Positions 33,645 through 37,983 of a stretch of 64,000 bases of DNA are shown here, in pieces. The DNA comes from an uncultured Pelagibacteraceae bacterium (GTDB taxonomy: Bacteria > Pseudomonadota > Alphaproteobacteria > Pelagibacterales > Pelagibacteraceae). Positions within the stretch are counted from its first letter, which is position 1. Each line of letters begins with the position of its first letter. The notes beneath the pieces were generated by a model. The model was not told where the DNA came from and searched no databases. It saw only the letters and a program-made list of their open reading frames with translations. Where the stretch lies: NCBI GenBank assembly GCA_902563575.1, contig CACEXV010000001.1:398354-462353 (forward strand), in the 5' to 3' direction. A program made the position numbers and the translations under genes.

Positions 33645-33692
33645 ATTGAAAATTAAACACTTTCATTGATTTAAATCACAAAATTAGAACAT

Positions 33693-33721
33693 TTGACATA
33701 TTGATTCGGTCATGTTTTAAT
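33693..33721 (+). promoter_or_regulatory. Sigma70-like promoter TTGACA-N17-TTTAAT upstream of helicase cluster
   Basis: Read directly; 60 nt before ATG at 33781. Confidence 0.5.
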
Positions 33722-36974: not shown

Positions 36975-37652
36975 ATGCCAAAAAGAAAGAAAAAAGTAAA
37001 AAAAGTCAAAAAAGTAAAAAAAGTTAAAAAAGTAAAAAAAAATAAATCTAATACAAAATCTTTTGTAAATGAGACAAACTTTAAATCTACAGGCTCATCA
37101 CAAGATGAAAAGCCAGAAATCAAAAAAATTAAAAAACAACCTACTGAAAAAAGAGTTTACAATTTAAAAGATTATGTGGTTTATCCAAAGCACGGTGTAG
37201 GAAAAATTGTATCTATTGAAAAGGCAACTATTGGACAAATCGATATTCAGTTTTATAAGATTTTGGTTGAAAAAGAAAAATTGACTCTTACTGTTCCAAT
37301 CAATCAACAATCTAACTTGAGACCAATTTCCACTATAAATCAAATAAATAAATGTGTTTCAATTCTAAAATCTAAACCAAAAATAAAAAGAACTATGTGG
37401 AGTAGAAGAGCTCAGGAATATGACCAAAAAATAAATTCTGGAAAAATTTATGAATTAGCTGAAGTTGTAAAAGATTTAAATAAAAACACTGATATCATAG
37501 CGGATCAATCCTATTCAGAACGCCAACTTTTTGAAAAAGCTTATGAGAGGCTAAAATCTGAATTCGAGGCAGTCTTGAAAGTCAGTCCAGAGGAAGTTAA
37601 GAAAAAAATGGATAAAGCTCTTGGTCGAAATCAAGTTACAGAATTGCAATAA
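36975..37652 (+). CDS. CarD-family transcriptional regulator with Lys-rich N-terminal repeat tail
   Basis: 225 aa; KDYVVYPKHGVGKIVSIEKATIGQIDIQFYKILVEKEKLTLTVPI; N-terminus MPKRKKKVKKVKKVKKVKKVKKNK. Confidence 0.93.
   Translation: MPKRKKKVKKVKKVKKVKKVKKNKSNTKSFVNETNFKSTGSSQDEKPEIKKIKKQPTEKRVYNLKDYVVYPKHGVGKIVSIEKATIGQIDIQFYKILVEKEKLTLTVPINQQSNLRPISTINQINKCVSILKSKPKIKRTMWSRRAQEYDQKINSGKIYELAEVVKDLNKNTDIIADQSYSERQLFEKAYERLKSEFEAVLKVSPEEVKKKMDKALGRNQVTELQ
36994..37041 (+). repeat. Imperfect tandem repeat of 9-nt unit AAAGTnAAA inside the CarD gene (approximate bounds)
   Basis: Repeating aaagtaaaa/aaagtcaaa/aaagtaaaa/aaagttaaa/aaagtaaaa. Confidence 0.8.
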
Positions 37653-37689
37653 AAAAACGCCCTTTTTAGGGTTATTAAAAAGGGCGTTT
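37651..37689 (-). terminator. Intrinsic terminator, possibly bidirectional, between carD and the convergent mini-gene
   Basis: 13-bp stem AAACGCCCTTTTT / AAAAAGGGCGTTT with 9-nt loop; minus strand followed by T run. Confidence 0.8.
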
Positions 37690-37709
37690 AAATAAAAGAA
37701 TTTAAAGAA

Positions 37710-37775
37710 CTATCTTCTTCTTCTTCTTTTTTTAGCTTTTTTTTTCTTTTTAGCTTTTTTTCTTCTTTTAGCCAT
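37710..37775 (-). CDS. 21-aa Lys/Arg-rich mini-protein MAKRRKKAKKKKKAKKRRRRR
   Basis: Manual reverse-strand translation ATG..TAG; RBS-like AGGGAG then ATAAG before ATG; terminator hairpin downstream. Absent from ORF track. Confidence 0.7.
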   Translation of the reverse strand: MAKRRKKAKKKKKAKKRRRRR

Positions 37776-37983
37776 CTTATCTCCCTGTTTATAAACAAAT
37801 CTTTATGATTCGTTTGTTAATTAAACATTAAATATTAAAAGTTTCATGTCAAACATAAATTAATTTGCAAATTTGATTCAAAATTTAATTTTTTTAATTA
37901 TTTTTTAATTTTTTTATAAAATTTAAAAAAGTTAGTAATATCAATGTTTTTTTAAGCAAATTAATTAAGTTTATATTTGATTA

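Follow-up and report, generated by a model that had tools for sequence, protein, structure and literature searches.

A conserved micro-gene for a Lys/Arg peptide convergent with carD in SAR11 bacteria, with a putative histone-H1-like orthologue and a candidate methylation-type promoter element

Background

The histone-H1-like proteins of bacteria, such as HctA and HctB of Chlamydia and AlgP of Pseudomonas, are disordered, very basic proteins built of Lys/Ala/Pro repeats, and the protamines of eukaryotic sperm are short, nearly purely basic proteins with a cluster of Arg residues. CarD (CdnL) serves as an rRNA-transcription factor in other bacteria, and the GANTC methylation motif times cell-cycle genes in bacteria related to the SAR11 group, whose members rank with the most numerous cells of the ocean. 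HctA has been characterized as a bacterial histone-H1-like protein (PMC8343073), protamine is known to loop DNA (PMC7293030), and the CarD protein of Myxococcus xanthus functions with an H1 tail replacing its HMGA-like tail (PMC8156234). As for small genes in SAR11 itself, an intergenic survey of strain HIMB5 reports at least three stand-alone sORFs, unnamed and with no function assigned (PMC6429828), and the gene described below may be one of them. The main text of the same study (PMC6429828) makes no mention of carD, of a likeness to histones or of GANTC for its sORFs, and the mini-gene is not mentioned in the SAR11 section of a Red Sea TSS study.

Here we follow up a short Lys/Arg ORF lying next to carD in a SAR11 genome. 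Two results extend the original prediction of this ORF, namely a long, H1-like orthologue in a sister family and, as the main addition, a near-invariant CGAATCA/TGATTCG element in the promoter.

The mini-gene and its neighbourhood

The window, i.e. the whole 64,000-nt stretch of DNA that was analysed, belongs to an uncultured member of the Pelagibacteraceae with a genome of 0.97 Mb (84% complete). The mini-gene found in it (table 1) starts with the ATG at 37775, ends with the TAG at 37710 and encodes the peptide MAKRRKKAKKKKKAKKRRRRR, which has a pI of 12 and a net charge of about +17. The original prediction described a minus-strand Lys/Arg ORF of 21 codons with a Shine-Dalgarno (SD) sequence 5 nt before its ATG, a TTGACA box further upstream and a hairpin with a T-run downstream; the ORF has the sequence claimed, and all of these parts are indeed present. 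The -10 region of the promoter is weak and poorly defined. The terminator hairpin stands between an A-run and a T-run and could end both convergent transcripts; folding of the 60 nt downstream of the mini-gene stop codon gives a median MFE of -20.8 kcal/mol across homologues. No second copy of the mini-gene was found in the window's genome.

Table 1. Position of the mini-gene, its predicted control elements and neighbouring features in the window.
Feature	Coordinates	Strand	Remarks
Mini-gene, 21 codons + TAG	37710..37775	-	Conserved in 118/119 loci; codon-level selection
Shine-Dalgarno AGGGAG, 5 nt before ATG	37781..37786	-	GGGAG/GGAG retained among homologues
Leader hairpin AACGAATC-ATAAA-GATTTGTT, predicted mRNA 5' end	37794..37814	-	Present in every homologous leader listed; displaced in g5, g7, g9, g12
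CGAATCA (+ strand: TGATTCG), GANTC site in extended GcrA context	37806..37812	-	Motif from PMC7987155
-35 box TTGACA	37848..37853	-	Box end 34 nt from CGAATCA
Terminator hairpin common to mini-gene and carD	37656..37689		Between both stop codons
carD/cdnL, convergent neighbour, Lys-rich N-terminal tail	36975..37652	+	Pfam CarD_TRCF_RID, CarD_C
Second TGATTCG in window, in -35/-10 spacer of helicase-terB-fdxA-carD promoter	33702..33708	+	

The convergent neighbour, carD, closes a tightly packed series of genes, helicase-terB-fdxA-carD, and the 43 closest named relatives of its product all come from Pelagibacteraceae/SAR11. The convergence was rightly predicted, as was a Lys-rich tail in CarD, with the specification that this tail is situated at the N-terminus. 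The tail is a low-complexity region of SAR11 CarD/CdnL (36975..37140 in the window), and the part preceding the CarD motif comprises 56-74 residues in the genera g1, g2, g3, g7, g8 and g13, and 93-125 residues in g4, g5, g9, g12 and the sister family f2. It mirrors the basic C-terminal tail of Myxococcus CarD, a protein that also works with an H1 tail, so that a basic-tail theme recurs around CarD.

Conservation across two SAR11 families

Regions downstream of carD were sampled from 11 genera of the window's family (f1) and from f2, a sister family within that order; CarD itself was found in 164 of the 197 genomes of the window's family. An intact, convergent, SD-led Lys/Arg ORF occupies the same place in 118 of the 119 distinct carD-downstream sequences from the two families. 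This number comprises 116 sequences recognized by an automatic test for SD-led Lys/Arg-rich ORFs and two (L068 and L178) accepted on inspection: the former has an intact mini-gene with the SD GGAACGGAG, and the latter (genome G028) has an intact ORF with the sole GTG start among the homologues. The only broken copy (L065, genome G006) contains an extra A in an A-run, which may be a true frameshift or a fault of the assembly; the gene is intact in L176 and L177, which belong to the same genus. The mini-gene is likewise present in 46 of 48 named SAR11 records, a set partly overlapping the 119 loci, with both misses falling at contig ends. The gap between the stop codons of the mini-gene and carD measures 34-70 nt among homologues, and the CarD domains of the two families carrying the mini-gene slot are 52% identical.

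The codons tell a consistent story. Comparison of closely related copies yielded 125 synonymous vs 53 nonsynonymous single-nucleotide codon differences (from pairs that are not independent), against an expected synonymous share of 19% (all changes) to 33% (transitions only), and 52 of the 53 nonsynonymous changes are exchanges between Lys and Arg. The ORF varies in length in whole codons only, with the leader of the same genes varying modulo 3. Selection keeps the charge of the peptide and not merely the purine content of the gene, a direction that is clear despite the non-independence of the pairs. The two checks put forward with the original prediction, conservation of start, frame and ribosome-binding site in relatives and selection at the codon level, have thus come out in its favour, and the mini-gene, predicted there as a stand-alone gene, is almost certainly a real, if small, SAR11 gene passed on by vertical descent.

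Long forms of the peptide

In the family f2, the slot of the mini-gene is occupied by an 80-99-residue Lys/Ala/Pro-repeat protein, MEELKVIFAKARKKAKKKAAPKKKRKAAKRKPAKKKAAPKKKK...KKRR, whose gene is convergent with carD, lies near the carD stop codon and has a GGGGGAG-type SD. These long forms consist of 60% Lys+Arg, have a pI of 12 and exhibit AAPKKK repeats, and a segment AKARKKAKKK in the long form can be aligned with the AKRRKKAKKK near the beginning of the window peptide. Other genera have peptides of 34-58 residues (g12, MAKKRKKAAKKKVAKKPAKRKVAKKKPAAKKRKP...), 35-38 (g9), 31 (g5), 29-32 (g7), 22-35 (g4) or 20-24 (g1, g2, g3, g8 and g13), and these lengths group by clade on a CarD tree. Since the lengths grade into each other and cluster on this tree, we take the long, intermediate and short forms for one gene, and the 21-mer of the window is very probably a short orthologue of the H1-like long form of f2. 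A 40-residue version occurs within f2 (L141, genome G202) where its relatives have 80-99 residues, which suggests that a single clade may lose its repeat region in some members.

Searches of Pfam and NCBIfam with the window form and the long forms gave no family match, histone-H1-like or ribosomal, and the H1 label is therefore based on composition and synteny. The composition typical of Hc1/Hc2 (Lys/Ala/Pro repeats and a high pI) is found in the f2 orthologues; the window form shares the charge only. A class-wide protein search with the long form returned no match, but this carries no weight for so low-complexity a sequence, as even the window's own genome went unmatched. In 68 loci sampled from other alphaproteobacteria, no Lys/Arg gene adjoins carD. 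A known structured RNA was rejected as an explanation of the mini-gene region, which has no Rfam match above the gathering score and shows sub-threshold noise mostly on the terminator.

The promoter element

The sequence CGAATC is found upstream of every copy of the mini-gene with enough sequence, nearly always extended to CGAATCA (the exception, L052, has CGAATCG). A spaced motif, TTGACA-N33..35-CGAATCA, is present in 142 of 144 distinct promoter/peptide combinations, the other two being off by 1 nt. It matches in 38 of 60 genomes of the family, once in each save for one duplicated stretch, vs three hits for a reversed control, and the mini-gene is the sole place with the looser TTGACA-N28..40-CGAATCA in each of four genomes (G000, G003, G040 and G197). 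A perfect CGAATCA/TGATTCG palindrome was rejected as the conserved unit, near-invariance being limited to the first arm.

Read from the other strand, the element places a GANTC site of the mini-gene promoter in the extended context TGATTCG/YGAKTCK, and this context is reported for GcrA-activated promoters of Caulobacter (PMC7987155). Both GcrA (PF07750) and a CcrM-type methylase with a RAMA domain (PF18755) are encoded in the window's genome; CcrM is known to be present in SAR11 (PMC3973325), and GANTC in Pelagibacter is methylated in a replication-linked pattern (PMC9516812). On these grounds the chances appear evenly balanced that transcription of the mini-gene is under GcrA/CcrM control and gated by GANTC methylation. 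The weakest point of such a reading is the position of the element: provided that the -35 box is correctly assigned, CGAATCA would span roughly +4 to +10, an unusual location for an activator site. GcrA of B. subvibrioides showed no preference for the extended motif, and few conserved GcrA targets have been predicted (PMC7987155).

CGAATCA could alternatively be chiefly an RNA element, i.e. part of a 5'-terminal stem-loop that stabilizes or regulates the mRNA, in which case the gene would be free of GcrA/CcrM control. In keeping with this, the hairpin is found in every leader listed (mean z -3.0 vs shuffles), and the second arm in g1, GATTTG, still pairs by G-U though its own GANTC has been lost. 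However, CGAATCA keeps a fixed spacing of 33-35 nt from the -35 box, whereas its distance from the ATG is free to vary between 35 and 63 nt, and the heptamer is unchanged in g5, g7, g9 and g12, where the hairpin is displaced and ACGAATC mostly unpaired; for these two reasons we favour a role at the DNA level. The distribution of TGATTCG over the genome also speaks against the RNA element: the heptamer is rare (12 copies in 970 kb vs 51 for the reversed control) and enriched between genes, with six of the 12 copies being intergenic vs about 5% of the sequence (binomial P about 1e-5, and P 5e-4 even if 10% were intergenic). A primarily RNA-level function consequently strikes us as doubtful, though it keeps a real share of the probability, and a dual role of CGAATCA in both DNA and RNA is possible.

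To return to the GcrA/CcrM reading, a predicted GcrA-type site, TTGACA-N3-TGATTCG, is situated in the promoter of the helicase-terB-fdxA-carD run (33690..33720 in the window) and is found again some 3.3 kb upstream of carD in five further genomes of g1 and g2 (G024, G027, G033, G041 and G058). With TGATTCG standing both before the carD run and before the mini-gene, the two convergent transcription units thus each carry the motif in the window's group (g1/g2). Four more intergenic copies of TGATTCG are found in the window's genome (L165, L168, L173 and L175), one of them between clpP and clpX, and are candidate members of a small SAR11 GcrA regulon. GANTC as such is depleted in the whole window (118 sites vs 192 expected), a depletion also reported for CcrM-bearing alphaproteobacteria (PMC3973325).

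Possible role of the peptide

Our best explanation of the locus as a whole, to which we give an even chance of being correct, is that the mini-gene encodes a protamine/H1-like, nucleic-acid-binding microprotein whose expression is gated by GANTC methylation. The mini-gene would be transcribed alone from its sigma-70-type promoter; the downstream CGAATCA (TGATTCG) would be methylated by CcrM and recognized by GcrA, so that expression would depend on how far the chromosome has been replicated and methylated. Translation, which we infer from the sequence, would yield an intrinsically disordered polycation resembling a protamine or a histone-H1 tail. In line with the binding to nucleic acid or ribosomes proposed in the original prediction, such a polycation may attach to the phosphate backbone of a nucleic acid, chromosomal DNA being the likeliest, and help to neutralize or compact it, and so contribute to nucleoid compaction. 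We lean slightly towards DNA rather than RNA as the main target of the peptide. The fullest version of the scenario, in which a nucleoid peptide of 20-24 residues has been reduced stepwise from an H1-like protein and is switched by CcrM via the promoter GANTC, is an attractive but rather unlikely one; if true, few known nucleoid proteins would be as small as this peptide, which would couple chromosome replication to DNA packaging.

Another conceivable role is that of a cofactor bound to RNA or the ribosome, i.e. a small basic ribosomal protein or an rRNA chaperone. The size, the charge and the near-universal single-copy presence of the peptide resemble those of small ribosomal proteins, the role would fit the CarD/CdnL neighbourhood, and the best PDB match of the long form is to the tail of ribosomal protein L29, at an insignificant E of 0.52. 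However, the long orthologue is made of AAPKKK repeats, whereas ribosomal proteins have fixed sequences, the length of the peptide ranges from 20 to 99 residues among the homologues, and the domain searches mentioned above retrieved no ribosomal family, so that we consider this role unlikely, if still worth keeping in mind. Runs of Lys/Arg codons can slow ribosomes. It might therefore be the transcript rather than the peptide that matters, as a ribosome-stalling poly-Lys/Arg frame or as an antisense or terminator device acting on carD, with which the mini-gene converges and shares its terminator; yet no same-strand gene follows the mini-gene, a strong terminator stands between it and carD in every homologue, no Rfam family matches, and it is the charge and not the nucleotide sequence that is conserved, which makes such a device very improbable. 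Lys-rich frames are common in AT-rich DNA, but a chance ORF in an A-rich stretch was rejected with near certainty on account of the synonymous excess and of a start, SD, frame and stop conserved across two families.

Comparison with known systems

The mini-gene, nearly universal, encoding an H1-related micro-polycation and having a promoter of the methylation type, would make a concrete target for further study, and it illustrates how gene callers can miss a gene of 20-odd codons in spite of its strong conservation. Of the systems described so far, the GcrA/CcrM-controlled promoters of Caulobacter (PMC7987155, PMC3708114) are similar in having TGATTCG by a sigma-70-type promoter, with both regulators encoded in the genome; they differ in that the candidate SAR11 site lies downstream of the predicted start and is accompanied by a hairpin. 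With CarD of Myxococcus xanthus (PMC8156234) the SAR11 locus shares the pairing of a CarD-type protein with a basic, disordered, H1-like part, but the tail of the Myxococcus protein is C-terminal and HMGA-like, whereas that of SAR11 CarD is N-terminal and the H1-like part is encoded by a separate, convergent gene. The window peptide is like the protamines in being short, almost wholly basic and terminated by an Arg cluster, but Lys exceeds Arg in it, and the protamines are proteins of eukaryotic sperm. The f2 orthologue resembles HctA/HctB and AlgP in its Lys/Ala/Pro repeats, its presumed disorder and its strong basicity, whereas the window form, with 21 residues only, lacks the Ala/Pro repeats; neither form has a Pfam/NCBIfam match.
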